Assembly: GCA_903913865.1 (NCBI GenBank)
Contig: CAIWMU010000250.1
Coordinates: 1-53,303 of the forward strand
Direction of reading: 5' to 3'
DNA: 53,303 nt
DNA from: an uncultured Verrucomicrobia subdivision 3 bacterium
GTDB lineage: Bacteria > Verrucomicrobiota > Verrucomicrobiia > Limisphaerales > UBA8199
This document shows, one piece after another, positions 1-15,875 of this stretch. The notes below the pieces were generated by a model that did no database searches, was not told the origin of the DNA, and saw only the letters and a program-made list of their open reading frames with translations. Every line of letters starts with the position of its first letter. Positions within the stretch are counted from its first letter, which is position 1. The translations under genes were made by a program, and so were the position numbers.

Positions 1-124
1 CAAAACTGCCCTGAATGCAAGAAATGGGTGCAGAAGACCTACCTTCCAGACAAAACTGAAAACGTCAGACCCAGAGGAAAGCCCTGTGGAATAAGGAGCG
101 CAGAAGATTTATGTCGCGCATATT

Positions 125-922
125 ATGCGCAGGTGTATAGCCTACCAATACACCCGCAAGCCGCCCCTCACCCTTCGCCCCAGACCGAACGTCATCATCC
201 GGCTCTGCTCCATCGAATGCTGCTTTGCCCATTCGTTGGAGGACTGCAAATCGAAGGAAAACGCACAGTTTCGGGACGATATCATTGCCTGGCAACCGGT
301 CGCTCCCCTGCTCTACATATGGGATTACACGCCCAATTTCGGCCATTACCAGCAGCCCTTCCCGAACCTTGACTCCCTCCAGCCGAACGTGAACTTCTTT
401 GTGGATCACCATGTGAAGGGCTTGTTCGAGCAAGGAAACTATTCCCCCGGCGGCATGGGGGAGTTGGGACCGCTTCGTGCCTACCTGCTGGCAAAGCTCC
501 TCTGGAATCCAAAAACAGATCTCGCGCGGCACCGTCAGGAATTCCTGCAGGCCTGGTATGGAAAAGCGGCACCAAAGGTCGGAGCGTTTCTTGACCTCAT
601 GCAGGATCAGGTTCGGGGTAAGGACATCCACGCCCACATTTTCGACCGACCCCAGCGCGCCTATCTAAAGGCGGACTTCCTGCGGACAGCTGATGAAATT
701 CTCGCAACCGCGGAAGCAGCAGCTGAAACCGACATCCAGAAATTCCATGTGGCAGTCACACGCCTGCCGGTCTGGTATGTTCAAATCTCCACCGGAGAGG
801 TCAAGGGGGAGGCGCTGGAAAGCTTGCGATCCCGTTTTCTGCAAGTTGCCAGAAAAGCAGGCATTTCCAACATCAGCGAATCCAAGAGCTTGGACGAGTG
901 GGAGAAATCCTTCAAAAAATAG
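125..922 (+). CDS. DUF4838-domain protein, C-terminal part (5' end missing or frameshifted)
   Basis: This is the C-terminal half of a DUF4838 protein, a family found beside glycoside-degrading enzymes and assumed to act on polysaccharides; no reaction is established. The family signatures are clear: AYQYTRKPP near residue 6, RLCSIECCFAH near 25, LYIWDY near 63, and GLFEQGNY followed by LRAYLLAKLLWNP near 100-128. The proper start is outside the window or lost. The expected upstream Cys-x2-Cys segment (NCPECK, bases 4-21) lies in frame 1 while the rest is in frame 2, and frame 2 has a stop at 92-94. The gene is therefore either frameshifted near bases 25-125 (a pseudogene) or the sequence has an error there. 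The first ATG at 125 is only where the open frame begins. It converges on the Nudix gene. Identity is secure; intactness is not. Confidence 0.72.
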   Translation: MRRCIAYQYTRKPPLTLRPRPNVIIRLCSIECCFAHSLEDCKSKENAQFRDDIIAWQPVAPLLYIWDYTPNFGHYQQPFPNLDSLQPNVNFFVDHHVKGLFEQGNYSPGGMGELGPLRAYLLAKLLWNPKTDLARHRQEFLQAWYGKAAPKVGAFLDLMQDQVRGKDIHAHIFDRPQRAYLKADFLRTADEILATAEAAAETDIQKFHVAVTRLPVWYVQISTGEVKGEALESLRSRFLQVARKAGISNISESKSLDEWEKSFKK

Positions 923-970
923 CGTCAGGCTCGGCGGTGTAGCGCTGAGCCAAAGTCATCGCATCCCCCC

Positions 971-1468
971 TCAGAGGTTCATCTTCGGCCAGATGAACCT
1001 GAGGGCGGATGCAAATTCAGTCGGACATCGGGTTATTCTTTGAGTCAATTCCGCCGGCTCGAGCCATTCCCCGCGTTCGATCTCATCGCGATTTATTTCG
1101 ATGGTCGCATCCCAGAGACAACGGTAAACCCATACATGCTCGCAATCCGTTTCCTCGCACGGGCCCAACTTGAATAACTTTGTTGGAGTGCTCCCCAGAT
1201 CAAACCCAAGTTCTTCCCTTAGTTCCCGGCGCGCACTTTGATCGTAGTCCTCCCCTGAATCCACGTGACCGGAGGAGGAGGTGTCCCACAAGCCGGGTTG
1301 GCGGTCTTTGGAGAGGGATCGCTTTTGGATGAAGACCTGTCCGGTTGAATTGAAAACAAAGATATGAACGGCGCGGTGAAGCAACCCAAGACGATGCACT
1401 TCGGAACGGGCAAGTTGCCCGATCACGTGATCGTTCTCATCAACGACGTCAAAAATTTCTTCGCTCAT
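971..1468 (-). CDS. Nudix hydrolase (YfcD/IPP-isomerase-like)
   Basis: A 165-aa Nudix hydrolase expected to cleave a nucleoside diphosphate linked to another group, with Mg2+ bound by the Nudix box. The box is complete: GHVDSGE, seven residues, then RELREELGF (about residues 91-113). The surrounding sequence, with VHIFVFNSTGQVFIQKRS before it and a WLEPAEL segment after it, resembles the YfcD and isopentenyl-diphosphate-isomerase-like group of unknown substrate. I use the ATG at 1468 because it overlaps the stop of the upstream phosphatase gene as ATGA; a TTG two codons earlier is possible. It is the last gene of the queE-to-Nudix operon and is probably translated by coupling. The substrate cannot be read from the sequence. 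Confidence 0.88.
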   Translation of the reverse strand: MSEEIFDVVDENDHVIGQLARSEVHRLGLLHRAVHIFVFNSTGQVFIQKRSLSKDRQPGLWDTSSSGHVDSGEDYDQSARRELREELGFDLGSTPTKLFKLGPCEETDCEHVWVYRCLWDATIEINRDEIERGEWLEPAELTQRITRCPTEFASALRFIWPKMNL

Positions 1469-2151
1469 TTGCAAAACTCCGCCAGTGCACGCATCTGACC
1501 CTCGGATGGCCGTATCCCCGGGCGTTTTTGACGCATCATCTCAACAGCAGCGCCGGGTGATCCCGCCCGGGCCTCCCGCAGCAGGTAGGCTGCTGCGAAC
1601 GTCGCGCTGCGGCCATGGCCAAGGGCACAATGCACATAAACGGGCCCGGAGGAAAGTCTCTGGATGATAAAGTCCACTCCCACGTTCAATTCTCCCATCG
1701 TGGGGTCGCTCCGGTCCAACAAAGGGATGCAAAGGTAACTGGCTGAGGAACGCAGGAAATGCACTTCTGAAAACTCTGCTGTCAAATCCAGCACACTCAG
1801 GATTCCACGCTCCTTGAACCGAGCCTCATCTCCGGACAACAGGCGTCCTCCAACAAACAGACCGGGAGCCACCTCATCAAAAGGGGTTTCCCGGGTGATC
1901 CACCGGAAAATGGAGAACGTGGTCCAATTCAGCAAATGGTAGGGCCAGAACAGGAAATAACTCGAGGCCATCAACTGGCCCCCCCGGCGTTTCCCCAGCA
2001 CCCCGGGCCAGCGACGGAGATAGGCCATGCCAACGAGCAGCAAGCCAACTCCACCCACCCCCATGAAACTTTGCCCAGCCATGCCGTTCCAACTCAGCGA
2101 CAGGGAAAAGAGGGCGATCCCGCCAAGGATAAACAGGATCCCCAGTTTCAA
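1465..2151 (-). CDS. Membrane-anchored dual-specificity/tyrosine phosphatase-like protein
   Basis: A 228-aa protein with two N-terminal hydrophobic segments (about residues 4-20 and 28-45) and a third hydrophobic patch near 65-82, followed by a dual-specificity phosphatase domain. The active-site P-loop is intact as HCALGHGRS (about 175-183), giving the Cys nucleophile and Arg. The expected upstream acid is probably in PLLDRSDP (near 144-151). The domain begins with EVAPGLFVGGRLLSGDE, typical of DUSP-like proteins in bacteria. It should act at the cytoplasmic membrane on a phosphoprotein or another phosphate ester; the substrate is unknown. The start is a TTG overlapping the rsmA stop (TTGA), with a GGAAAGG ribosome site about 8 bases upstream. 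It lies between rsmA and the Nudix gene. Confidence 0.83.
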   Translation of the reverse strand: MKLGILFILGGIALFSLSLSWNGMAGQSFMGVGGVGLLLVGMAYLRRWPGVLGKRRGGQLMASSYFLFWPYHLLNWTTFSIFRWITRETPFDEVAPGLFVGGRLLSGDEARFKERGILSVLDLTAEFSEVHFLRSSASYLCIPLLDRSDPTMGELNVGVDFIIQRLSSGPVYVHCALGHGRSATFAAAYLLREARAGSPGAAVEMMRQKRPGIRPSEGQMRALAEFCK

Positions 2152-2999
2152 TCCGGTGCCTTTCCGCAGAGCTTCCGGGTCAATTGCACAAACAGCCCCA
2201 AGCTCACCCGCTCAGCACGGATCCCCACCGGTATTCCCAGTTCCATAAAGGCCGACTCAAGCCTCGGGCCATCAAATTGAGCCCGGAGCAGTTTGAGCAT
2301 CATCTTCCGACGTTGTGAAAAGCTTGTTTTGACGACTTTGACGAAACAGGATTGAAGCTCCGGCCCACTGAGCAGCAGAGGGTTCCTGCGCACCAGCACC
2401 ACACAGCCGGACTCAACATCCGGCTCCGGGAAGAAACAACTGGCAGGAATCCTGAACCAGGCCTTGGCCTCATAATGAAGGCCCACAAGAAGTGAAAGCA
2501 GTCCGTAATCGTCCTGCCCCTCCTTCGCACAGAGACGGCGCACCACTTCCAGTTGCAGGGTGGTTACAATCCGGGCAGGTCCCTGCGGTGCCAGGGCCAA
2601 TTCCACAAGAATCGGAGAGGCCACGGAGTAGGGAAGATTCGATACCACTTTCCATCCGGACCAATCCCTGACTGTCCCCTTCAAATAACCCAACGCATCC
2701 CCATGCAGCAACTCCAGCCCCTTCCCGGGTTCCAGCCGTTCGGCGAATCGCTGCTGCAAGAACTGGACAAGGCGAAGATCCTTTTCGATCGCAAAAACAG
2801 TTCCGACCTGCCCCATCAACTGTTCGGTCAGTGGCCCCATTCCCGGTCCGATCTCCAAAACGGAGTCCGCCGCAGTCAACTCGGCACCACCGACGATCCG
2901 TCGCAACTGGTTGCCATCGTGCAGAAAGTTCTGGCCCAGGGACTTGGTGAGCTGGATTCCCCCTTCTGTAAGGGCCGCCTTCATTTCGGAAAGATTCAT
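2148..2999 (-). CDS. rsmA: 16S rRNA (adenine1518/1519-N6)-dimethyltransferase RsmA/KsgA
   Basis: A 283-aa enzyme that dimethylates two adjacent adenines in the 3' hairpin of 16S rRNA during 30S subunit maturation, using S-adenosylmethionine. The family signatures are in order: LTKSLGQNFLHD near the N-terminus, the SAM-binding loop VLEIGPGMGPLTEQL (about 47-61), the catalytic SNLPYSVASPI (near 120) and the C-terminal TSFSQRRKMMLK. Length is normal for the family. I chose the ATG at 2999, just before the conserved N-terminal block. The longer open frame would add 71 residues overlapping the upstream aminotransferase and looks artificial. The chosen ATG overlaps the stop of a 38-aa small ORF as ATGA. 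Confidence 0.95.
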   Translation of the reverse strand: MNLSEMKAALTEGGIQLTKSLGQNFLHDGNQLRRIVGGAELTAADSVLEIGPGMGPLTEQLMGQVGTVFAIEKDLRLVQFLQQRFAERLEPGKGLELLHGDALGYLKGTVRDWSGWKVVSNLPYSVASPILVELALAPQGPARIVTTLQLEVVRRLCAKEGQDDYGLLSLLVGLHYEAKAWFRIPASCFFPEPDVESGCVVLVRRNPLLLSGPELQSCFVKVVKTSFSQRRKMMLKLLRAQFDGPRLESAFMELGIPVGIRAERVSLGLFVQLTRKLCGKAPD

Positions 3000-3112
3000 C
3001 GTAAAAACGCCGCCCCCAACCCGCCCAGACCGTGCTGTTTCGGGTTCTTCGAGTCCATCCCGGCATTGGTGCCGGGGCGGGTCCCGATCTGTTGTCTGTT
3101 CGCAATCATCAT
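2996..3112 (-). CDS. Small 38-aa ORF between aminotransferase and rsmA
   Basis: A short reading frame not matching any family I recognise. It overlaps the aminotransferase stop at its start (ATGA at 3109-3112) and the rsmA start at its end (ATGA at 2996-2999), so it fills the junction exactly. Its ATG is preceded by AAGGAGGTGG about nine bases upstream, the strongest Shine-Dalgarno sequence in this operon, whereas rsmA itself has no comparable site. The peptide is basic and glycine-rich (KNPKQHGLGGLGAAFLR at its end) with no membrane segment. It may be a real small protein, or a leader whose translation delivers ribosomes to rsmA. Coding is supported by context only. Confidence 0.5.
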   Translation of the reverse strand: MMIANRQQIGTRPGTNAGMDSKNPKQHGLGGLGAAFLR

Positions 3113-4401
3113 GGTGCATCCACCTCCTTTTGCAGGGCGCGGAGCATCTGCTCAATCTGATCCCTGGAAACCACCAGCGGTGGCGTGAATCCAAGGACAT
3201 TCGAGTGCTCACCCTCCGGCAGCATGATATATCCAGCGTGAAGCATTTTCTTCATCAGCTTGATGACGAAGCCCGTTGCCGGATCGCCAGAAGCGGTTCG
3301 AAATTCAAGTCCCGCCATCAAACCCATCCCCCTTGGTTCGCAAGTTATCCCAGTGCCTGGACAATGAATGCTCCGCAAGCCGGATAGCAGGGTCGAGCCC
3401 ATGCGGGCGCTTCGCTGGACCAGCCGCTTGCTGCGGATCTCTCCGATCTGCGCCAAAGCCATGGCGCACCCCACCGGGTGGCCGAGGAATGTGCTCGTAT
3501 GGATGGCCTCCCCATCCGAAGGGGGCCAGGCATCCATCACCTCCACCCTGCCAACGCAGGCCGACATCGGAAAACCGCCGGTCAAAGCCTTCCCGAGGCA
3601 GATCAAGTCCGGGATGACCTGTTCGTGTTCACAGGCAAACCACTTTCCGGTTCGCCCGAAACCGGTGTAAATCTCATCCAGCACCAGCAGGGTTCCCGCC
3701 TTCCGACAGAGCGCGGCAACCTCCGAAAGGAAACCGGGGCATGGAATCCGGATGCCGCCCCGGGCCTGAATTGGCTCCAACAGCACGGCACCGATCCTGC
3801 CGGAATTCAACAGTTGCTTGAGGCTCCCGAGACTCCGGCTTGACTGCCCCGATGCACTCGGGAATGGGAGGAAGGATCCAAATTCACGGATCTGGTCCAG
3901 GAACGGGGTGCGGAAATGGTCCCGGTGCGTCACGCTCAAGCTGCCGTAGCCCAGCCCGTGGTAGCCACCCTCATAGGCCACCACCCCGGGCTTGCCGGTC
4001 GCAAGCCGGGCTGTCTTGATGGCCGCCTCCACCGCCTCAAATCCCGAGTTGCAGAAAATGACCTTCCCCGTTTCATCCCCCCATCGCTCGTAGGTCAACC
4101 GGCTTAACTCACGCGCAAGCCGGGCTTTCAGCGCATGGGGATGCACATCCCCCATCGCATGCAGGAGAACATCCATCTGATCCTTGCCTGCCCTCACCAC
4201 TTTGGCGTTCGCATGGCCGGCCGCCGCCACCCCGAAGGCCGCTGTAAAATCCAGATAGCGATTTCCATCCTCATCCCAGACGTGCATGCCCCGGGCCCGC
4301 TCCCAGACGATCGGCCAGCCGCCCTCCGGATCGCAGAAAGTGATGTTGCGCGACTCGTATTCCTTGAGCTGTTTAAGAACCTTGGATGGGCGTTTACTCA
4401 T
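3109..4401 (-). CDS. Class III pyridoxal-phosphate aminotransferase
   Basis: A 430-aa fold-type I, class III (ornithine/GABA/acetylornithine-like) aminotransferase. Conserved features are the GNRYLDFTAAFGV block near 46-58, the phosphate-binding CNSGFEAVEAAIKTAR (near 115-130), EGGYHGLGYGSLSVT, LLVLDEIYTGFGRTGKW containing the Asp that holds the pyridine nitrogen, and the Schiff-base lysine in LGKALTGGFPMSA. The motif HTSTFLGHPVGCA follows. It should transfer the terminal amino group of an omega-amino acid or related amine; the substrate cannot be fixed from sequence, and neither queE nor rsmA points to one. It starts 10 bases after queE, with GGAAC upstream of the ATG. Confidence 0.9.
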   Translation of the reverse strand: MSKRPSKVLKQLKEYESRNITFCDPEGGWPIVWERARGMHVWDEDGNRYLDFTAAFGVAAAGHANAKVVRAGKDQMDVLLHAMGDVHPHALKARLARELSRLTYERWGDETGKVIFCNSGFEAVEAAIKTARLATGKPGVVAYEGGYHGLGYGSLSVTHRDHFRTPFLDQIREFGSFLPFPSASGQSSRSLGSLKQLLNSGRIGAVLLEPIQARGGIRIPCPGFLSEVAALCRKAGTLLVLDEIYTGFGRTGKWFACEHEQVIPDLICLGKALTGGFPMSACVGRVEVMDAWPPSDGEAIHTSTFLGHPVGCAMALAQIGEIRSKRLVQRSARMGSTLLSGLRSIHCPGTGITCEPRGMGLMAGLEFRTASGDPATGFVIKLMKKMLHAGYIMLPEGEHSNVLGFTPPLVVSRDQIEQMLRALQKEVDAP

Positions 4402-4411
4402 CTTGTTCCAG

Positions 4412-5152
4412 TCAGACGCCGCGTTGCTCCGGGGGCCAGATCACCTTGTGCATCTGAACCTGAAACCGCACAGGCAGGGCATCCGCGATGATTCGCTCCA
4501 CCAGCTCGAGTCTTGTGATCAGGCTGATGTGTGGGGAAAGGGGCTTGAGCGAGGGATCCTGCTGCTCAGGCTCCAATGGTTGGGCCCAGGAAAAGAGCAC
4601 GGGACACCGCTCGGCAAGCCGGAGGGTTTGCAACTGCTTCTTCGCCCAGAGGTAATCATCTTCGGAAGTGATCACAAACTTGATCTCGTCCCGTGCGTTC
4701 AGCAGGGGGATGTTCTCCCAACGGTTGCGCGCCGCCTCACCGCTTGCGGGACACTTGATATCCACAATCCTGTGAACCCTTGGATCAACCCCCGAAATAT
4801 CGAGTGCTCCGCTCGTTTCGAGAAGCACCGTGTAACCGTGGTCACACAATGCTGACATCAGCGGAAGCGCCAACTTCTGCGCCAGAGGCTCCCCTCCGGT
4901 CAGTTCCACCTGGGGCAACCTGCCAGCCAGCGTTCCCGGCCCCTGCTTGTAAGGCTGTGCCAGGCGGTTGCACTCGCTCACCACCTCTGTGACAGTCATC
5001 CTCCTGCCCCCGGAGAACGCATAAGCACTGTCACAATAGGAACACCTCAGGGGACATCCCGTCAGCCGCACAAAGATGCACGGCAGCCCGGCATGGGTGC
5101 TTTCCCCCTGCAGGCTCAGGTAAATTTCGTTGATAACCAGTGTTCCCGTCAT
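4412..5152 (-). CDS. queE: 7-carboxy-7-deazaguanine synthase QueE
   Basis: A 246-aa radical-SAM enzyme that converts 6-carboxytetrahydropterin to 7-carboxy-7-deazaguanine, the ring-contraction step towards queuosine. The N-terminus has the QueE signature INEIYLSLQGEST. The cluster motif is GCPLRCSYCDSAYAF (C-x3-C-x2-C, near 32-46) and the SAM-contact motif is ELTGGEPLAQ near 83-92, followed by LLETSGALD. No other queuosine gene (queC, queD, queF) is in the window. It is the first gene of a six-member minus-strand operon, divergent from the ATP-cone kinase, so its promoter must lie in 5153-5324. Confidence 0.92.
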   Translation of the reverse strand: MTGTLVINEIYLSLQGESTHAGLPCIFVRLTGCPLRCSYCDSAYAFSGGRRMTVTEVVSECNRLAQPYKQGPGTLAGRLPQVELTGGEPLAQKLALPLMSALCDHGYTVLLETSGALDISGVDPRVHRIVDIKCPASGEAARNRWENIPLLNARDEIKFVITSEDDYLWAKKQLQTLRLAERCPVLFSWAQPLEPEQQDPSLKPLSPHISLITRLELVERIIADALPVRFQVQMHKVIWPPEQRGV

Positions 5153-5324
5153 GGGAAAAGGCTAGCGGATGCAGCAGGAATAATCCACCTGAGATTCCCC
5201 AGCCAACGTGGGGAATTGAACATGGAATCGGGTCAAATCGCAGGTTCCAGCCATGCTGGCATCACGCCCTCCCCGTCACTGCAAACTGGTTGTTTCCATT
5301 CCAGTGAAGTGCCATCTTTGGGTG
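5153..5324. other. Divergent intergenic region, queE / ATP-cone kinase
   Basis: This 172-base spacer must hold promoters in both directions. Two dyads are visible: TTCCCCA (5195-5201) pairs with TGGGGAA (5209-5215) across a 7-base loop, and CCAGCCATGCTGG (about 5249-5261) is a near-palindrome. Neither is followed by a T-run, so they look like operator or leader elements rather than terminators. I could not assign a convincing -35/-10 pair. Confidence 0.4.
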
Positions 5325-6785
5325 ATGTCGGTTCAAAATCGTATTGTCAAAGTTCAGAAACGGAATCGGGCCCTGGTCCGGTTTGATGAGGAGCGTATCC
5401 GCAGGGCGATTCTCCGGGCTGCGGGATCCATCGGGGGGTTCCGGCATGATCTACTTCCGGGAATCAATGACCGCATTTTTGATCTTTGCCGTTCGGATGA
5501 TGAGATTGCCCGGTTCCTTTCCGATATCGTGGTGGTCTGCCTGAATTCGGATGTCAGGCATCTGACTTCGAATTTTCCACCGACCATAGAAACGATCCAG
5601 GATGAGGTGTTGCACACCCTGCACAGCTATGGCTTCCAAAACACGGCGGATGCCTTTGCCTGCTATCGCTGGGGACGCCACTGGCTGCGGGAAGGTTCAA
5701 TCACAAATTCTGCATTTGGGGGTAACGGGTTCCCTGCCAAGGGAATACAGGACACTCTCGAGACCAACGAAAAGCTCGGATGCCACACGGTGGAGGGTCT
5801 GAATGAGATCGTCCGGACCGGCCGCACACGAACACTGGTGGAGTCCTCCCTCGCAGCGTATGAGGCATCTCTCGACGAGGCAGAGGCCAAGGTTATCGGC
5901 CGCATCAACGCGGGGGATCCGCTCCGGATGATCTGGGTGAGCGGACCCAGTTCCTCGGGCAAGACCACGACGACGGTGAAGCTGACTGAGCGGCTTCGGA
6001 GGAAGGGGTTGCGATTCCTGATGCTCAATCTGGACGATTATTTCTGGTCCCTTGTCGAACATCCCACGGATTGGATCAACGACAGGAATTACGAAACCCC
6101 CGAGGCGATGGACATTCAGCTTCTCAACCAGCATCTCAAGGAGTTGCTGGAGGGGAAGACGATCGAAAAGCCTGTTTACAGCTTTAAGGAGGGGCGACGG
6201 CTGGCACCCAAGCCTATCAGGCTTGAGCCTGACCAGATCCTGCTTCTCGATTGTTTGCATGGGCTTTATCCGCCAATCACCGAGGGGATTGATCCCAAGT
6301 TCCAGTTCACCCTTTACATCGAAAATCAGAACGCCCTCCTCGAAGGGGATGGATCGGACCGCAGGCTGACCCGTTTTACCGATGTGCGACTTCTGAGGCG
6401 GATGCTCCGCGATGCCAGACATAGAAACCATTCCCCCCTGCTCACGCTTCTGCATTGGCATTATGTGCGTGTGGGGGAACTCTTCAGCATCATCCCTCTG
6501 TCCGGGCTGGCGGATCATGTGATTAACGGCGGATTCCCTTTTGAACTGCCCGCCCTGAAACCGTTCTTTGATGGGCCGGGTTCCCTTCTCCCAAGAATAG
6601 AGGACCTTCTCCCCTACCCCGGCTTCCTGGATGCCCACATCCGTCTGGACCGGCTCCGATCATTGTTGGATTCCATTGCAGGGCTGCCCATGGAGCAACT
6701 CACGGGGCTGGACTTGATCCCGGGGGATGCCCTGCTCAGGGAGTTTATCGGAGGCAGTACCATCCAAATTCCACACAACGAGTGA
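5325..6785 (+). CDS. ATP-cone domain fused to uridine kinase/phosphoribulokinase-like P-loop kinase
   Basis: A 486-aa two-domain protein. Residues about 5-95 form an ATP-cone (RIVKVQKRNRALVRFDEERI, then IRRAILRAA), the nucleotide-sensing module of ribonucleotide reductases and NrdR. After a linker, residues about 180-430 form a uridine-kinase/phosphoribulokinase-type P-loop kinase: Walker A in VSGPSSSGKTTTTVKL, then LMLNLDDYFW and a Walker-B-like ILLLDCLHGLYP. It probably phosphorylates a nucleoside or sugar with ATP, with the cone giving allosteric response to ATP/dATP; the substrate is unknown. The ATG at 5325 sits just before the cone; an upstream in-frame ATG-like start at 5253 would add a 24-residue tail without family features. 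It is monocistronic, divergent from queE. Confidence 0.82.
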   Translation: MSVQNRIVKVQKRNRALVRFDEERIRRAILRAAGSIGGFRHDLLPGINDRIFDLCRSDDEIARFLSDIVVVCLNSDVRHLTSNFPPTIETIQDEVLHTLHSYGFQNTADAFACYRWGRHWLREGSITNSAFGGNGFPAKGIQDTLETNEKLGCHTVEGLNEIVRTGRTRTLVESSLAAYEASLDEAEAKVIGRINAGDPLRMIWVSGPSSSGKTTTTVKLTERLRRKGLRFLMLNLDDYFWSLVEHPTDWINDRNYETPEAMDIQLLNQHLKELLEGKTIEKPVYSFKEGRRLAPKPIRLEPDQILLLDCLHGLYPPITEGIDPKFQFTLYIENQNALLEGDGSDRRLTRFTDVRLLRRMLRDARHRNHSPLLTLLHWHYVRVGELFSIIPLSGLADHVINGGFPFELPALKPFFDGPGSLLPRIEDLLPYPGFLDAHIRLDRLRSLLDSIAGLPMEQLTGLDLIPGDALLREFIGGSTIQIPHNE

Positions 6786-6920
6786 CGCCGGGTGTGATCT
6801 GCACGCCGGGTCGGGACCTGAATTCAGGCTCCGTAATCCATTGTCTATTCGGTGTCTGTGCTTGAAGCGTGGACATCAGTTCGGAATGGTTTCCCGTGCC
6901 CCAACCCTTCCTCCCCAAAA

Positions 6921-6960
6921 CAATGCGGGGGCAATCCTGTGGACTGCCCCCGCAACATTG
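6921..6960 (-). terminator. Rho-independent terminator of the giant repeat protein gene
   Basis: TGCGGGGGCA (6924-6933) pairs perfectly with TGCCCCCGCA (6945-6954), and the flanks CAA/TTG extend the stem. On the minus strand the stem is followed by TTTTGGGG, a short T-tract. It lies 27 bases past the stop of the giant gene. A stem this G+C-rich may also block readthrough from the plus-strand kinase gene. Confidence 0.75.
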
Positions 6961-6986
6961 GCTCGATGATCTGCCCTGGGTTTTAA

Positions 6987-9900
6987 TCAAGGATAGACCA
7001 ACCGATAGAACACTGTGGGGTTCACCGGATCAAGCGGAACAGCCACGGAGTTCACTGTGGTGGAACCTGGCACGGTGACCCAGTTGGTGCTGATGCCGAC
7101 GGCCACGGAGTTGGTCTGAACCTCCAGGCGCCATCCGGTGTGGTCGGACGGCCAGGAGATGTTCAAGTTGCCGCCGCTGACAACCGCAGTGATGTTGGTC
7201 GGGGTCGTGTTGACTCCCAGGACAGCGGTGATGCTGCCATCGATGGCAAGACTGTTGCTCCAGGTCAGAGGCGGTGGGAGTGTGGGCAGGGAGATGGAGC
7301 TGAAACTTCCCAGCCGATCCACGGCGCTGAAGAGCTTGAACCTGGTGCCAGCTGCCGGTGTGGCGCCGAGGTTGTTGACCGTCAGAGTGCCTCCATATGT
7401 CACGGTGCTGGCACTCGCCACCCTGTCACAGGTAGCGGCACCGCCATCCATCTCCATGAAGGTGGAGGAACCGGCACCGAGTGTGAGGGGACTGTTTATC
7501 GTGAGCATGCCAATGGCGTTTACGCCCGGCCTGAGGAAGCTGCCGGTCTGGAGATCAACAGGGCAGTTGATCGTTCCCGTTCCACCAAGGGTTGAGCCAG
7601 AGGCAACCACGACCGCATTGGCGGCAGGCAGGGAACCATTGACGAATAGCTTACCTGAGTTCACGAATGTGGGCCCGAGGTAGGTGCTGGCTCCCGAGAG
7701 GGTCAACGTTCCGCCATTGACCCGAACCACGGCGTTTCCGCTGATGACGCCACCGTAAGTCAGAGCCCCCGCCCCGATCTTCGTAAAATCCTGGTTCGCC
7801 GTGCCGCCACCGGGATTCCAAGTCAGGCTGGCGCCCGCGTTTTGGATGTCGATGTAACCGCCACTGCCGCTATCCATCCATATGGTGCGGGTCATCGTCT
7901 CACTGCCGCTGCCGGTGTAGCGCAGGGTGCTGCCAAACTTGATTGCGACATAGGCAGTGCCGAGGTTGGTGACTGCGGCCACCTGCAGGGTCAGCGGCTG
8001 CTGCAGCTCAAACCCACCGGAGAAGGTGTTTGCTCCTGTCAGCGTCATGGTGCCGTTGGTTCCCCGTGGGTAGATGGTTCCCGCACCACTGATCAAGCCC
8101 CCAATGGTGACGGGGTTCACGGTGTCCTGAATTCCATCGCCGTTGTTGTCGCCGAACATGTCCAGATAGGTCGGGTTATTCACCGCGTTGAGCGTGTGGG
8201 ACAGGGTCATGGGCGAATCAAACCGGACCGTGCTGCTGGCGGCGGGAATCAGAATGTTTCCGGGAGCCCCCAGGGCATCCGCTGTGAGGGCCAGAGTTCC
8301 CCGGTTCAGGAAAATTCTGGATGCGACAAAGTCATTCGCCGGATTGCTCAAGCGGATCACGCCGACTGCCCCGGAACTGTTGTCGAACCAGTTTGTCATG
8401 CCCACGAAACCGCCGCTGATCCTGCCCGAGAGGGTGAAGATGCTGCTCGCATCCCTACCTTGAATGGCAACGTTCGTGATCGTTGAGGATGGCAGAACAA
8501 TCGAATTTGCCACAACGCCGCCACTGGAGACGTTGATTTCCAGCGGGCGGAGCACATTCGTGGCAAAGAAGAATGCGTTGGTGGCAAGGCTCGCGTAGCC
8601 TGTTCCGTTGATCGTGACGCTACCGGTTCCCAATGCTGATGGATTCCTTACAAGCAACGCAGCCGTTCCGACCGCACCTGCTCCAAGCGTACTGGCTGGG
8701 GCGTTGCTGATCACTGTCCCACCTGAGTAGGTGTTCGCATTTGAGAGGGTTATCGCAGCCGTCCCGCCATCAATCCACAGCGCGCCCGGACCGGAGATGA
8801 CGCCGGAGAAAACCTGCGGCAGGCTGTTGTTGAAGACCGATGCGGAACTGATCTGAACCGGCCCGAGCCAGGTCGGGGTGCTGTTGCGGCTCGCCATCTT
8901 GGCGCCATCCAGCTCGATCGGCATGTTGATTTGCCGTGCGCCATAGGCTGAGAGGGTCGCCCCGGGTTTCACGAAATTCGTGGTGGTGGCGGTCCAGGAG
9001 TTCGTTTGATCATAGCTTTCGTAGAAGAATGTTCCGTTTGAGACCGTGATGCTGCTCAGGTTGGTGAGGGTCTGAACACGCATGTTGATCGTGCCATCGC
9101 CAACCTTGGTGAGGGAGAACCCTTTACCATCCACCTTGCTGTTGACGGCCGGCCCGATATCCCAGCGGGTGTTCGCCCCTGCGCCGAGGACGGAATCCGC
9201 ATTGAGGGTCAAGTTGGAGACGTTCGCATACTCATAGATGTCGTAGGTCTCATTCCTGAGAGCGCCCTGCCCGTCAGGTCCGGGACCGGCGATGACGAAG
9301 TCATGCCCCCGCCCAATGACATTGTCGTTCATTCCACCGAAGTTGAACGCGGCTCCGTTGGCAACCGTGACGGTAGTCGCATTGACATAGGAATCATTGA
9401 TGCCAAGGGCGAGTGTTCCGGCGTTGACATTCACCGGGCCGGCCAACTCATTGACTGTTCCCAGAGTGGTGGTTCCGGTATTGTTCTTGGTGATGCTTCC
9501 CACACCGGTGATCTTACCACTTCCGATGATCGAGTAGTTGTTAATGCTGTCAAAGGTGATGCTGGACGGAGAAACGGATCCTACGATGCTGACGCTGGTG
9601 TTCGCCGTCGTCCGGGTATCATCAAAGCGGACGGCGTCCAACTGGTTGAAGTTGGTGTTGGAACTGCCATCAAACCAGTTCACCGAGGTCGTCTCATAAT
9701 CCCAGGCATTCGCACCGCTATCACCCTGCCACACCAGGCTGTTGCCCGGCGCATTGAACGTCACTTTGACGGCCTTGCTGGCGGTATCGATACTGAAAGT
9801 CGCGAGACTGCCCGAATAATTGGTCAATCCGGCGGCTGTCCCGGACAGGCTTCCGGTGTATTTGATCAGGGTGTAAGTTCCCGAGGCGGGCAACCCGTTG

Positions 9901-12900
9901 AGGAACGTGAAGTTGACAGCTGTTGCAACATCGCTCAGGGAGAGGTTGCCGTTCACCTGGATGAGGTCGTTGGCTGTGCCTCCCACGGCCGTTGTGTTCC
10001 CTAGTTTAAACGTCAGGCTCCCGGCACCACTGACGGAGAGGCCACCGGACACGGTCAGGGTTCCCACAGAAGTCCCCATGCGGATTACTGTGCCCGAATT
10101 GTCAGTCACATTGCCAACAACCGTGCCGCTGCCTTGCAGGATCTGATTGGCGGCCATGGTCCAGGCTCCCGGTGAGGAAATATCGAGCGTCGTGCCGGAC
10201 TCCAGGGTGATGGCTCCTGAATTGGTCAAGACACTGGCAGGACCCGACAGGACGAGGGATCCACCGTTGACGGTCACGGCTCCATTCGGCCCAAACCCGT
10301 TTGTGACCTTCATCCGCCCAGCGCCATTCTTGGTCAAACTGTAATTGGCGGCGGCCTGTGTGATCGGTGCGGTGACCAAAAGATCATCCTGAGCAGCACC
10401 ATCAGCGACGGTGAACACCGTGTTCCCCTGACGCAAGTAGAGACTTGCTCCTGCGATTACGGAACTGTTTGCGCTTGCCAGGACATTGACAGCTGCGCCT
10501 GTGCCAAGGTCAATACGACCCCCCACGTTGGTGGCAGCCACATAGGCACCATTCATGTTAACCACAGAATTGTTCCAGAAGGTCAGGTTGTTTCCGGGTG
10601 TGTGAATCAATGATGCGCCATTCAGAGTGAGGTTGGTGACCTGGGAAGATCCGCCGTTGTATCCCAGCGAGTCGTTGTTTTGTGAGAGCAGGAGTGTTCC
10701 GGGTTGCATCGTGACCGATCCACGAATGACTCCGCTTCCCCCACCAGCCCGGAGGGCCAGAACACCACCATTTACGGTGACACCTCCCTGATTGGTGCTC
10801 AATCCGGTGAGAGCCAGGACGGAACTCCCATTCTTTACCAATGCCAGGGTCTGCGGCCCACCATCAGCAAATGTGCCTGTGAACAAGGCATCACTCGATG
10901 GATTCACTGTCAGCGTGGCCGGGGTGGTCAGGCTGCCGTTCTGGACGGATCCCGCAACGGGGGATGCGATGTCGGTCACTGAACTGCTCTGTCCATTCAA
11001 CTTGAGATTTCCGCCGTTGATGATAAGGGGGATGCCAGCAGGCAACGCATTGGCGTTATCCAGCCAGAGTGTTCCCGGGCTGACTCGAAGAGCGGAAAAG
11101 CTGTTCGGAGAGCTCGGGGCGAGCGACAGGAAGCCGGAGGCGTTAAGTCCGAATTCAGCCTCGTAGGCTCCGCTGATGGTCCCGGAAATCACGTTGGAAA
11201 GAGCGTTGTCGTATGCACTGATTCTGGTATTTCCATTCAGTGTGATCGGCCCGGCCCAATTCATGCCGTTCTGGAGCCGCAGAGCTCCAACATACCCGGC
11301 GCTTTCCTGCCACCCTGCCCCTGAAAGTGACAGGGGAATGCTTGCAACCGAGCTGAAACTTGCAGCGACAGCATAGATCTGGCTGCCGGTCGGGACAGTG
11401 ATGATGGCGGGATTACCCAATCCCATACCGCCGATGGCGCTATAAAGCCGCACGTTGGAAAGGCTGACTGGCCCGGTGAAGGTGTTGGTGCCGGCCAACT
11501 GATAGGAGCTCTGACCAATATAGCCAACTCCCAGGAAGTTGATCGCACCGTTGCCCGTATGTGGCGCATTGAGGACCGGGGAGCCTGCCCGGTTGTAGAC
11601 CAGAGTCCCGAAGTTGTTGATTGGACCGTTGCCAAGCAGTCCGCTGTCAGCTGCCAGGCCGTTGCCGACTTGAACAGTTGTTCCAGGATTGATTCTTGCC
11701 CCGCCATAAAAAGTGCTGTTTCCCAGAACAGTCAGAACACCCGAACCCGCCTGCGTGAAGCTACCGGGCCCGCTGATGAGGCTGGAGGAAACCGATGCAT
11801 CGGAACGGTTGAACACCAGCGATCCGAAGTCGGCGATGTTTCCGGCGAGTGTGCCACTTGTGCCGCCATTGCCCACTTGAATTGTCCCCGAGTTCAGAAC
11901 TGTGGTTCCAAAGGCGTTGCTGTTTGCAAGGGTCAATGTTCCAGACCCGCTCTTGACCAGATTGCCGACGGTGGTGATGGCTCCACCGGACAGGGAATAG
12001 TCGCCGCTGGAGTTCACCGTCACGCTCGCTGGCGTCATGTCGGCAGCAAGTGTCACATTCGGAGTCCCAATACCGTTGGCGTCGAAAACGACGGCATCAT
12101 TCTGAAGGTAACTCGATGCGACGTTCCCGTTCAGCCAGTTCGCATCGGCGTTGGAGTTCCAGAAGTTGTTCACATCCCCGCGCCAGACCAGTGCGGCGTT
12201 GGAGCCGGAGAAAGTCACCTGGACACGCTTCGGATTGGTCTGATCCAGATTGACGGAATAGCGTGTGGGGTTGGCGTAAGTCAGGCTGCCGGTCCGGGTC
12301 CCCCAGTTTGTAATGATCGTGTAGGTGCCGCCGTTATAGGGTATGCCGCCGAGGAAGTTGAGAGCCAATGGTGTGGCGGCGTCCAAGGTCAGGTTCCCCT
12401 TAACGGTAAGGAGGTCGCTTGTGGCGGCGGTGGAAGAGAGGTCTATGGCCACGGAAGCTCCGGCCGTGAGGGTCACATTGCTGGCCGTGAGGGTTCCCGT
12501 CGCGAGTGTGGCACCTGCCGAAATGGCACCCGGTGCCTGCACATTGATGTTTCCGGAGAAGGTTCCGGATCCCTGTAGCGTCCCTGCCTGAACGGTCAGT
12601 GCCCCCGTGGATGAGGATGCCCCATTGAGATTCAAAGCCCCTGCGCCGGTCTTGCTAATGGCACCGGCTCCAATGCAAGGTCCACTCAAGGTGATGGCAT
12701 AGGGACCGGTGTCGAACGTCACAGTCCCTGCCAGAGTATTCGTGATGGCGCTGGTCCAGTTTGCAATCGAGCCCAGAGTGCCACCCGCAAGGTTCATCGT
12801 GTAGGGAGCAAATCCATTGATTCCCCCGGCACCCACCAGAATCGTGCCGTTTGTCACATTGAGGAAGCCACCGCCTGTTGCACTTCTCCCGTTCACATCA

Positions 12901-15554
12901 ATACGTGAAACGGTTGCAACGCCCCCCAACATATTCCACACACCGGTCCCATCAATGCCCAGGGATATCCGGGCATTCGGCCCACCCGTGATCACCAACT
13001 GGCCGCCGGACATGGTGTAGGTGCTTGTTTCCGTAGGCCAATGACCCAACCGCATCGGACCTTCCGTCTCGGTCAGGTCTGTAATGGTGAGCGCCCCACC
13101 AGTCTGGGTGACGTTCCCATTATAACTGCCTGTTTGACCTGCAAACAACCGTCCAACGGTGACCTTGTCACCATCAGCGACTACAAGTTCCGGTCTGCCA
13201 GCAGTCCCGTTGTTATTGCCGACTTCTATGGCGGCAGTCCCTACGAGATTGACATTACCCAACCGGACTGAGTTGGTCCCGAACAGCTGAATTCCGCTGG
13301 TTCCGGTGATTGGCCCACGGATATTTGTCGAGTTGGTGCCACGGATTCCCAGCAGTCCATAGTTCGTAATTGATCCCGGGAATCCAGCGGAACCAGACGT
13401 GATATTGCCGAGTTGAATACCACCGTTGCTGATGGTGAGACTTCCTGTGAAGGTGTTCGATACCGCCGTGACCACTGTCCCGGCCCCGAACTTGACCATC
13501 TTCCCGGTGCCACTCACGGGGCTGGATAGCGTCGGAGAATCAGAACGGTTGAACACGAGCATGCCGTTATTAACAATAGCCCCTGCCCCGGGTAGACCGG
13601 ATGTTGCGCCGTTGCCGACCACCATCGTTCCGCCTTCGATGCGGGTCGTGCCAGTCTGATCATTGTCCGTCAGGAGAAGAAGACTTCCCGTATTGCTCTT
13701 CACCAGGCTCGCGTTGCCGGTGATTTTACCGCTGCCAGCCAGTGTGTAATCCTTCGTTGCATCCACGAGGACTGATGACGGGGTTACCGGAGTGACGATA
13801 TTAACCGAGGGGGAGGAACTCCCTGTGTCATTCAGGATTACGTTGTCCGCCTGATAAAACCGATCCGTCAAGCCTCCCTTCAACCAGTTCGGGGTGGAAA
13901 CGATATCCCAATAGTTGTTGATGGCATCCCCCTTCCAGACCAGAGCCGCCGGATTGCCGCCCACAATGACTTTGATCGCGCTTGCGCTTGTGTCGTTTGT
14001 GAAGGTAAAGGTGTAGCGGGTCGGGGCGGACGCCAGGGTGTCCACTATGACCGAGGGCCCGTTGTAATTGACGTATTTGACCAAAGTATAAACGCCACCC
14101 ACCACAGGGGCCCCGTTCACGAATCCAAAACTGACGGTGTTGGTCGCAATTCCCGATCCTGCGAGTGTGAGATTTGTCACCACGAGCAGATCATTGGCCC
14201 CACCCGCCGTCGTCGTGTTTGCCAGATCAATGTTCAGCGACAGATTCCCACTCAGGTAAAGAGAGTCGAAGGTGAGGGTGCCCGCCGCGCCGTTCCCCCC
14301 GGGGGTAATAATCGCCGGACTATTGTCGCTGAAGCTCCCGAGGATGGTGCCGGATCCGGCCAGCATCTGGTTTGTGTTCAGGGTGAATCCGACTGTGGTC
14401 ACATCCAGAACAGCCCCGCTCCCGACGTTGATCAATGGTGTCCTTCCCACTGCCTGTGCACTGCTCAGACGCAGTGTGCCTGCGTTCACGATTGTCGAAC
14501 TCTGGTAGGTGTTGTCGGTGGACAAATCGAGGATGCCCGCACCGTTCTTGATCAACCCCGCGTCAGTGGCATAGGTTGTCCTGGCAATCACACTTGCCAC
14601 GGTCAAAGTGTCTCCTGCCCCCACATTAAAGATCGTCCCGCCGGTTTGCCCGAGGGTCACATTGCCACCGGAGATTGTGGAAGAGGATCCGTTGCCCGGG
14701 GTGCTCACGCCATAATCGAGGTTCCAGTTGCCGTAGTCATTCCGGGCTGTCGATGCCCCCAAGGTTCCCCCGTTCAGCGTCAATGCAGCCATGTGTCCGG
14801 ATCGATCTCCGGTGGAGACGGTGCCGCCGGCATTGATCGTGACGCTGCGTGGTGGGGCCACCGTCGCCCCCTGCCCCAGGAGCGCATTGTCCATGTTCAC
14901 TGAGACCATGCCTCCGTTGTTCACCACTAAATTGCCGCTACCCACACTGCCGTTGCCTGCGGCGTTGGCACTATTTGCATTGACTGTACCCATATTGACG
15001 GTCAGTCCGCCCGCATAGGTGTTTAACGCTGCGAGTGTGAATGTTCCGTTTCCGGATTTGGTGATTCCCGTTGTTCCCGATACCACGCCCGCCAGAACCA
15101 GATCGCCTTCCCCAACAACCGCAAGGGGATAGGATCCCAAACTGGTTGTGTTGGAGACGGAAAGTGAACTCCCGGGGGCAACATCGCAATTGACTGCTGC
15201 GCTCAGCGTGATCGGCATGTAGAGAACATTATTCCCCCCAATATTGGTAAGTCCGCCCACGGACAAGTTGTTGCCGTAAATCCAGAAATCACCATTTGCA
15301 AATTGAAGCCATCCGGCGGAAAGGCCGGTCAGATCGTTCGTATTGATCGTCTGATTGTTTCCGCTGAGAATGATGTTGTCCCCATTTACAGGGGCGGCAC
15401 CAGACCAATTCCCAGCCGCCGACCAGTTCGCAGTGGCGTCTCCCCCGGACCAGATTATGTCCGCAGCCCGCGAGACTTGCTGGGCAAAGGATGCTCCAAT
15501 GGCAGCCACCAGACAGGACCGGAATAGTGGCCGGAAATAAATGGATTTCTTCAT
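6987..15554 (-). CDS. Giant secreted autotransporter-associated beta-strand repeat (PATR) protein
   Basis: A 2855-aa exported protein, probably a beta-helical surface or extracellular protein. Residues 1-30 form a Sec signal ending VSRA. The rest is glycine-, serine-, threonine- and asparagine-rich and contains at least eleven PATR-type repeats of the form K-x-G-x-G-T-L-x-L...NTY-x-G...V-N-x-G-T-L. Four larger modules are visible, each opened by a W-x-G-D...N-W block (Trp at about 35, 540, 1124 and 1942). The first three close with an NDLL...Y-T-L-I unit, and the fourth ends in a related degenerate form. The C-terminus ends FYRLVYP with no beta-barrel translocator and no PEP-CTERM motif, so it is not a classical autotransporter. 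I use the ATG at 15554 because the signal peptide starts there. Role in adhesion or polysaccharide binding is inference. A terminator follows. Confidence 0.9.
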   Translation of the reverse strand: MKKSIYFRPLFRSCLVAAIGASFAQQVSRAADIIWSGGDATANWSAAGNWSGAAPVNGDNIILSGNNQTINTNDLTGLSAGWLQFANGDFWIYGNNLSVGGLTNIGGNNVLYMPITLSAAVNCDVAPGSSLSVSNTTSLGSYPLAVVGEGDLVLAGVVSGTTGITKSGNGTFTLAALNTYAGGLTVNMGTVNANSANAAGNGSVGSGNLVVNNGGMVSVNMDNALLGQGATVAPPRSVTINAGGTVSTGDRSGHMAALTLNGGTLGASTARNDYGNWNLDYGVSTPGNGSSSTISGGNVTLGQTGGTIFNVGAGDTLTVASVIARTTYATDAGLIKNGAGILDLSTDNTYQSSTIVNAGTLRLSSAQAVGRTPLINVGSGAVLDVTTVGFTLNTNQMLAGSGTILGSFSDNSPAIITPGGNGAAGTLTFDSLYLSGNLSLNIDLANTTTAGGANDLLVVTNLTLAGSGIATNTVSFGFVNGAPVVGGVYTLVKYVNYNGPSVIVDTLASAPTRYTFTFTNDTSASAIKVIVGGNPAALVWKGDAINNYWDIVSTPNWLKGGLTDRFYQADNVILNDTGSSSPSVNIVTPVTPSSVLVDATKDYTLAGSGKITGNASLVKSNTGSLLLLTDNDQTGTTRIEGGTMVVGNGATSGLPGAGAIVNNGMLVFNRSDSPTLSSPVSGTGKMVKFGAGTVVTAVSNTFTGSLTISNGGIQLGNITSGSAGFPGSITNYGLLGIRGTNSTNIRGPITGTSGIQLFGTNSVRLGNVNLVGTAAIEVGNNNGTAGRPELVVADGDKVTVGRLFAGQTGSYNGNVTQTGGALTITDLTETEGPMRLGHWPTETSTYTMSGGQLVITGGPNARISLGIDGTGVWNMLGGVATVSRIDVNGRSATGGGFLNVTNGTILVGAGGINGFAPYTMNLAGGTLGSIANWTSAITNTLAGTVTFDTGPYAITLSGPCIGAGAISKTGAGALNLNGASSSTGALTVQAGTLQGSGTFSGNINVQAPGAISAGATLATGTLTASNVTLTAGASVAIDLSSTAATSDLLTVKGNLTLDAATPLALNFLGGIPYNGGTYTIITNWGTRTGSLTYANPTRYSVNLDQTNPKRVQVTFSGSNAALVWRGDVNNFWNSNADANWLNGNVASSYLQNDAVVFDANGIGTPNVTLAADMTPASVTVNSSGDYSLSGGAITTVGNLVKSGSGTLTLANSNAFGTTVLNSGTIQVGNGGTSGTLAGNIADFGSLVFNRSDASVSSSLISGPGSFTQAGSGVLTVLGNSTFYGGARINPGTTVQVGNGLAADSGLLGNGPINNFGTLVYNRAGSPVLNAPHTGNGAINFLGVGYIGQSSYQLAGTNTFTGPVSLSNVRLYSAIGGMGLGNPAIITVPTGSQIYAVAASFSSVASIPLSLSGAGWQESAGYVGALRLQNGMNWAGPITLNGNTRISAYDNALSNVISGTISGAYEAEFGLNASGFLSLAPSSPNSFSALRVSPGTLWLDNANALPAGIPLIINGGNLKLNGQSSSVTDIASPVAGSVQNGSLTTPATLTVNPSSDALFTGTFADGGPQTLALVKNGSSVLALTGLSTNQGGVTVNGGVLALRAGGGSGVIRGSVTMQPGTLLLSQNNDSLGYNGGSSQVTNLTLNGASLIHTPGNNLTFWNNSVVNMNGAYVAATNVGGRIDLGTGAAVNVLASANSSVIAGASLYLRQGNTVFTVADGAAQDDLLVTAPITQAAANYSLTKNGAGRMKVTNGFGPNGAVTVNGGSLVLSGPASVLTNSGAITLESGTTLDISSPGAWTMAANQILQGSGTVVGNVTDNSGTVIRMGTSVGTLTVSGGLSVSGAGSLTFKLGNTTAVGGTANDLIQVNGNLSLSDVATAVNFTFLNGLPASGTYTLIKYTGSLSGTAAGLTNYSGSLATFSIDTASKAVKVTFNAPGNSLVWQGDSGANAWDYETTSVNWFDGSSNTNFNQLDAVRFDDTRTTANTSVSIVGSVSPSSITFDSINNYSIIGSGKITGVGSITKNNTGTTTLGTVNELAGPVNVNAGTLALGINDSYVNATTVTVANGAAFNFGGMNDNVIGRGHDFVIAGPGPDGQGALRNETYDIYEYANVSNLTLNADSVLGAGANTRWDIGPAVNSKVDGKGFSLTKVGDGTINMRVQTLTNLSSITVSNGTFFYESYDQTNSWTATTTNFVKPGATLSAYGARQINMPIELDGAKMASRNSTPTWLGPVQISSASVFNNSLPQVFSGVISGPGALWIDGGTAAITLSNANTYSGGTVISNAPASTLGAGAVGTAALLVRNPSALGTGSVTINGTGYASLATNAFFFATNVLRPLEINVSSGGVVANSIVLPSSTITNVAIQGRDASSIFTLSGRISGGFVGMTNWFDNSSGAVGVIRLSNPANDFVASRIFLNRGTLALTADALGAPGNILIPAASSTVRFDSPMTLSHTLNAVNNPTYLDMFGDNNGDGIQDTVNPVTIGGLISGAGTIYPRGTNGTMTLTGANTFSGGFELQQPLTLQVAAVTNLGTAYVAIKFGSTLRYTGSGSETMTRTIWMDSGSGGYIDIQNAGASLTWNPGGGTANQDFTKIGAGALTYGGVISGNAVVRVNGGTLTLSGASTYLGPTFVNSGKLFVNGSLPAANAVVVASGSTLGGTGTINCPVDLQTGSFLRPGVNAIGMLTINSPLTLGAGSSTFMEMDGGAATCDRVASASTVTYGGTLTVNNLGATPAAGTRFKLFSAVDRLGSFSSISLPTLPPPLTWSNSLAIDGSITAVLGVNTTPTNITAVVSGGNLNISWPSDHTGWRLEVQTNSVAVGISTNWVTVPGSTTVNSVAVPLDPVNPTVFYRLVYP

Positions 15555-15875
15555 AGTGATTATTCTGTTTTGTAATTGCTGTTCTGAGAACCTTGACTCA
15601 CCCGGAATGCCGAACACGACATTCAAGCCCTACCCCAACAGATATGGAGTTCCCAGAAGTCACAAATGGATTTGATCTAACCCTAAAAACAATTTCTGAG
15701 AATGTCCATCCCCCATTTGGGGGATTTTGCTCCGAATTTTCAGCGATGTTCCCCGCCCGATTGCGTGGTTGGGATTCAACAGGCTGTGCAAATCGAAGAT
15801 CCCAATTCCTGCTCAGTCGGGGGATGGCTGGAAAAAATGTGGGCGAATGAGGAGATCCGGGGGTAGGATGTCGAC
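15555..15875. other. Divergent intergenic region, giant repeat protein / polA
   Basis: This 321-base spacer lies between divergent genes. A weak ribosome site (TAGGA) precedes the polA ATG. The short open frame within it (15593-15850) has no family features and no ribosome site, and I do not regard it as coding. No convincing -35/-10 pair or dyad was seen. Confidence 0.4.

Follow-up and report, generated by a model that had tools for sequence, protein, structure and literature searches.

A 38-codon open frame between an aminotransferase gene and rsmA that may relay translational coupling across inserted DNA

The window, by which we mean the whole stretch of 53,303 nucleotides analysed here, carries on its minus strand a compact run consisting of a radical SAM gene, a class-III aminotransferase gene (amt), a short open reading frame (ORF) and rsmA, in that order. 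The radical SAM gene (4412..5152; Pfam Radical_SAM, at the cut-off), which we take to be queE, lies 5' of amt and adjoins it in many relatives; amt itself (3109..4401) matches PF00202 with an E value of 6.5e-94, and rsmA (2148..2999), the gene for the 16S rRNA adenine dimethyltransferase, matches PF00398 with an E value of 1.4e-40, its start at 2999 having been placed by alignment to relatives. Between the two there is indeed, as a first-pass annotation of this DNA had pointed out, an ORF of 38 codons (2996..3112, ATG to TGA, 38 aa) with an ATGA overlap on either side: the amt stop TGA (3111-3109) shares bases with the ATG of the ORF, whose own TGA (2998-2996) shares bases with the ATG of rsmA (2999-2997). 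The stop-to-start spacing is therefore -4 nt at both ends, in the range of overlap or very short distance that termination-reinitiation calls for. With a stop codon on one side, a start codon on the other and an overlap with each neighbouring gene, the ORF also has the layout of the mycobacterial interspersed repetitive units (MIRUs), for which we assumed as criteria an ORF overlap on both sides and insertion at a pre-existing coupled stop-start junction. A dual-specificity phosphatase-like gene (1465..2151, minus strand; PF00782) meets the rsmA stop in a TTGA overlap 3' of rsmA and is followed by one more gene, presumably NUDIX-like, both at -4 on starts picked by our own gene finder; since the chain of overlaps runs on past rsmA, the ORF fills the sole break in it from amt onward. 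Elsewhere in the window (6987-15626, minus strand) there is a repetitive open frame of 2879 residues, which we presume to resemble a giant autotransporter-type surface protein.

The ORF is preceded by a Shine-Dalgarno (SD) site, AAGGAGGTGG (3120..3129, minus strand), which lies inside the C-terminal codons of amt and whose computed pairing energy, on the anti-SD letters that we assumed, is -14.3 kcal/mol. The corresponding values are -9.0 kcal/mol for rsmA, -3.3 for amt and 0 for queE, which bears out the claim that the best ribosome site of the operon belongs to the ORF; the companion claim, that rsmA lacks a good site of its own, holds only in part, because a G-rich GGGGGCGG 10 nt upstream of its start accounts for those -9.0 kcal/mol. 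A pairing of -13.5 kcal/mol is reached by none of 120 predicted starts (about 305 kb of the same genome) and by none of 420 random positions. A search for the 16S gene in the window's genome did not find it; in all five relatives in which one was found, out of six searched, the 16S 3' end reads GGATCACCTCCTTTCT and the anti-SD is intact. SD cores are scarce at predicted genes, with 0.06-0.12 per start in the window's genome and three related genomes of the order, and by comparison with these four genomes they are strongly enriched ahead of rsmA wherever amt and rsmA overlap directly in relatives (n=97): there are 0.59 cores per junction at -8..-18 against 0.04 at -22..-32, and GGAGG itself occurs at -18 to -5 in 19 of the 97. 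These cores fall in the same last amt codons in which the window has AAGGAGGTGG, and it follows from this match in position that the ORF begins at what is, in the direct junctions, the start site of rsmA. Across the 46 other gapped junctions, no excess of SD cores was found at the old site.

The junction in relatives was assembled from 110 loci and 120 further stretches, the latter drawn from 120 of 282 rsmA-bearing genomes; after the removal of 16 of these 230 that had no amt upstream and of 63 near-identical loci among the remaining 214, there were 151 deduplicated junctions, window included, with start codons assigned by homology and membership of one order established for part of the set. 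In 97 of the 151 (the window being counted in the denominator), amt and rsmA overlap directly by an ATGA of exactly 4 nt. The one same-genus genome compared (L002/L031) is among the direct cases, lacking the ORF while both neighbours are intact, so that the window's ORF occupies what its own genus and the wider set point to as a pre-existing coupled stop-start junction of the kind assumed for MIRU insertion. Judged from the frequencies in relatives, direct ATGA coupling from amt to rsmA is the commonest and probably also the ancestral state. The position at which amt ends is alike in direct and gapped loci (medians 430-432) and it is the rsmA start that is displaced, which implies that the gaps are added DNA; a truncated amt was considered as the source of the gaps and rejected, its length being unchanged. 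A FastTree tree, built on rows of uneven length, has 35 gapped-only clades and calls for at least 31 changes between the direct and gapped states. Gap lengths modulo 3 are skewed toward a remainder of 1 (n=26, against 15 for 0 and 6 for 2).

In the window, the comparison of junctions delimits about 113 nt of extra DNA (3000..3112) relative to the direct amt/rsmA overlap, the exact ends of which are ambiguous because ATGA is present on both sides. This insert is single copy, a search of its own genome returning, besides the insert itself, nothing more than a 16-nt match at E 0.76, and thus it is not an interspersed multi-copy repeat as a MIRU would be. A DNA search of 320 genomes gave only partial matches (23 others at E <= 0.01, the best at 9.7e-5 over 36 query positions), which we take to be chance. 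No local repeats or inverted repeats were reported in 2900-3250, the RNA fold of the region is no better than that of shuffled sequences (z -0.68), and a scan of 1-8000 against Rfam gave no match at E 1 or below. Many relatives carry between amt and rsmA a low-copy element resembling an inverted repeat, with arms like CACRGATG ... CATCYGTGTYYATCYGTGG and a left arm that often holds the amt stop. At least two hits of its ATCYGTG motif occur in 19 of 47 gaps, the gaps with the element including L035, L055, L061, L084, L085, L133 and L203; exact copies of the right arm number 3-9 in four of the eight genomes searched and were not found in the other four, among them the window's genome. The element may favour coupled junctions.

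For each gapped junction we then recorded, frame by frame, whether a stop codon occurs between the end of amt and the start of rsmA, with expectations taken from dinucleotide shuffles; the set comprised 47 junctions with gaps of 11-599 nt, the window among them, a single gap of 1313 nt being excluded. The frame that ends on the ATGA (or TGATG) of rsmA is stop-free in 34 of the 47 gaps against 19.3 expected, and the other two frames in 14 (19.1 expected) and 21 (19.3 expected). Relay ORFs, defined as ORFs whose start lies no more than 30 nt from the amt stop and which end on the rsmA start, are found in 30 gaps where 14.3 would be expected. The excess is present when the window is left out (33/46 open against 18.9; 29 relays against 13.7), in gaps with the ATCYGTG repeat (13/19 open against 6.5) and in gaps free of it (21/28 against 13.0), and also when each gapped clade contributes one junction (26.3/35 open against 14.5, with a largest P of 0.0002 over 200 draws; 22.9 relays against 10.8). 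The idea of a relay was formed on the first 33 junctions, and the 14 added afterwards, taken alone, go in the right direction weakly: the frame is open in 7 against 5.0 expected (P 0.15) and relays number 7 against 3.8 (P 0.02). In the interior of gaps shorter than 300 nt, obtained by trimming 15 nt at the amt end and 45 nt at the rsmA end, the relay frame has 8 stops and the other frames 21 and 15 (P 0.037), a weaker excess. A strict need for coupling predicts stronger SD sites for rsmA in relay-free gaps, and no such difference was found (mean -2.2 vs -2.8 kcal/mol).

Other junctions were compared as well. At queE-amt, which was treated by the same rules, a junction that played no part in forming the idea and that comes from the same genomes with less certain amt starts, the frame is open in 33 of 38 gaps against 24.0 expected (P 7e-5) and relays number 13 against 5.7; gap lengths modulo 3 show no skew there (14, 10 and 14 for remainders 0, 1 and 2). 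No overall excess was found among 241 background gaps (same strand, 40-300 nt, four genomes), a pool that includes gaps outside operons and relies on starts from our own gene finder (94 open, 101.1 expected; 28 relays, 23.8 expected), and one subset of it, gaps of 121-300 nt in a single genome, has 6 relays against 1.9 expected (P 0.004). For two further -4 pairs, rbfA-nrnA and batA-batB (gene names of the latter presumed), we used the 30 loci that scored best for each pair, out of 293 and 313 genomes in which a match was obtained, near-identical loci being kept. The nine rbfA-nrnA gaps are open in the relay frame in all nine cases and in a second frame equally in all nine, with 3 relays against 2.3 expected; the 11 batA-batB gaps have the frame open in 5 (3.2 expected) and 5 relays (0.9 expected), of which only one lies in the seven gaps below 200 nt, the four longer gaps holding frames of 117-151 codons. 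It is not clear that these two pairs extend the relay pattern. The long batA-batB frames, each a single one with ATGA at both ends in a gap of 346-448 nt (L337, L340, L341, L344), may represent an additional gene present in some lineages.

Is the ORF then a gene in its own right? The first-pass annotation had entertained a genuine microprotein and had named relatives with the frame lost and the neighbours intact as the observation that would speak against it; the same-genus genome and the 97 direct junctions of 151 are such relatives, and a lineage-specific microprotein now appears very improbable, in spite of the strong SD site and the clean start and stop. The 38-aa peptide has four other matches at E <= 0.1 in 196 genomes (best 0.0082), at loci with no rsmA or amt match, which we take to be chance; no homologue beyond chance was found by DNA in 320 genomes, nor any Pfam match, so neither the frame nor the sequence is kept in relatives as a conserved microprotein would require, the window's own species being represented here by one genome. 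With the codon table of its own genome the ORF scores 0.010 against -0.076 +/- 0.079 for shuffles of its own base composition (P 0.13), a comparison of low power at 38 codons, where real stretches of this length span -0.11 to 0.28 (5-95%) and overlap it. Some doubt about a non-coding reading persists because the codon table of the related amt and rsmA genes ranks the ORF frame top of the three (0.28, against -0.02 and -0.38). In relay gaps of 40-599 nt (n=25), relay frames score -0.115, close to the other two frames (-0.130 and -0.138) and far below the last amt codons (+0.26), and the relay peptides have little in common save repeat-derived pieces; that they were copied from the neighbouring genes was also rejected, a comparison with the products of the window's queE, amt, rsmA and phosphatase-like gene (dsp) giving no match at E 0.1. 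A coding alternative of another kind is that RsmA starts upstream at ATG 3119 (MHHDD...), with a 40-residue N-terminal extension and the strong SD site serving that start. The rsmA frame is open through the insert, its nearest upstream stop being 255 nt away, it scores the same as the ORF there (0.026 vs 0.010), and our gene finder, which uses the coding score only, picked ATG 3119 (323 aa). We nevertheless hold this to be quite improbable, given that AGGAGG lies only 3 nt from ATG 3119 and pairing at a spacing of at least 4 nt drops to -7.7 kcal/mol, that in alignments the RsmA proteins of relatives begin at the Met at 2999, and that stops close the rsmA frame in 33 of the 47 gapped junctions.

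More serious is the alternative that the right frame is open by accident, in DNA that was inserted or has drifted, and that rsmA is translated uncoupled from its own G-rich site. Taken alone, the window's ORF could be chance, as 52% of shuffles of the same composition and length are open too, both ATGA motifs could have been inherited from the ancestral junction or duplicated at it, and GGGGGCGG gives rsmA a site of -9.0 kcal/mol; moreover, the relay is missing in 17 of the 47 gapped junctions. What makes chance unlikely in our estimation is that the frame ending on the downstream start exceeds the other two both here and at queE-amt, unlike in the 241 pooled background gaps, an argument that favours the class and not each member of it. 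The frame excess could also be a leftover, if insertions inside the 3' end of amt had left old open amt codons beside rsmA, and the weakening of the excess once the 45 nt before rsmA are omitted is what this would produce; yet amt has the same length in gapped loci, no relay peptide matches the window's amt at E 0.1 (amt tails being short and variable), and the depletion of stops persists inside gaps below 300 nt (8 vs 21 and 15), leaving this explanation extremely improbable.

The reading that we prefer, with a probability of roughly 0.6, is that the ORF is a relay that keeps termination-reinitiation coupling going over inserted DNA, in which case the frame would matter and the peptide would have no role. 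The earlier suggestion of a coupling leader is thereby upheld indirectly, inasmuch as direct ATGA coupling is commonest in relatives and gaps are bridged above chance by frames that end on the rsmA start. To judge from the commonest state in relatives, the ancestor would have had an amt stop and rsmA start overlapping as ATGA, with an SD site within the last amt codons; the comparison of junctions shows that some 113 nt foreign to the junction came between its two halves, and the old SD site and start codon now open a frame of 38 codons whose stop falls exactly in the ATGA of the displaced rsmA start. Ribosomes leaving amt, together with those recruited by the strong SD site, would translate the relay frame and restart at rsmA. 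The absence of codon bias in relay frames, the constant length of amt and the dissimilarity of the peptides make it the simplest reading that what is retained would be an uninterrupted frame overlapping both neighbours, and not the peptide sequence. In the pairs tested in Haloferax volcanii and Escherichia coli, gaps of about 20 nt nearly abolish reinitiation according to the cited passages of PMC10666635, which could supply the pressure for relays.

A wider claim, that selection on DNA inserted at coupled junctions does no more than maintain a single open frame leading from the upstream stop into the downstream ATGA and that relay ORFs form a recurrent class unconserved in sequence, is one that we advance tentatively and regard as rather doubtful. 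If true, such a class would account for many of the orphan overlapping small ORFs in operons. Microproteins are a frequent proposal for small ORFs that have a good start site and stop-start overlaps with their neighbours, and this junction offers a counter-model: should the relay hold, missing sequence conservation would not mean missing function for such ORFs, and a test of frame openness across homologous junctions would detect them. The junction also illustrates how insertions could be accommodated in a coupled operon. A literature search returned no title dealing with relay ORFs that recur, without homology to one another, at homologous junctions, which is not proof of absence.

The direct amt/rsmA overlap of the relatives has the same architecture as the ATGA and TGATG overlaps at which termination-reinitiation is described in the passages cited from PMC6728339, PMC10666635 and PMC12548453, and the window departs from such direct coupling in that its two enzyme genes are joined via a short frame without coding bias. 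MIRUs, as portrayed in the cited part of PMC12548453, insert at start codons and contain an ORF of their own with -4 coupling; the window's ORF would work alike, but its insert is single copy, and because it is not repeated we do not regard it as a MIRU. The relays of relatives differ from MIRUs in being mostly unlike one another, some being built of the low-copy ATCYGTG repeat. A parallel in design is found in ribosome-delivering short ORFs and engineered bicistronic leaders (sections of PMC12548453 and PMC5995908), with which the window's ORF shares a short first frame, a stop-start overlap to a real gene and a strong SD site; it differs from them in being natural, in sitting within an operon and in being accessible to ribosomes from the upstream gene too. 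Lastly, the small intergenic ORF ahead of a Mg2+ transporter gene in Salmonella (PMC8092293) likewise lies between operon genes and promotes downstream translation, as the window's ORF is proposed to do; that ORF is presented in the cited portion as translation-aborting, which sets the two cases apart.
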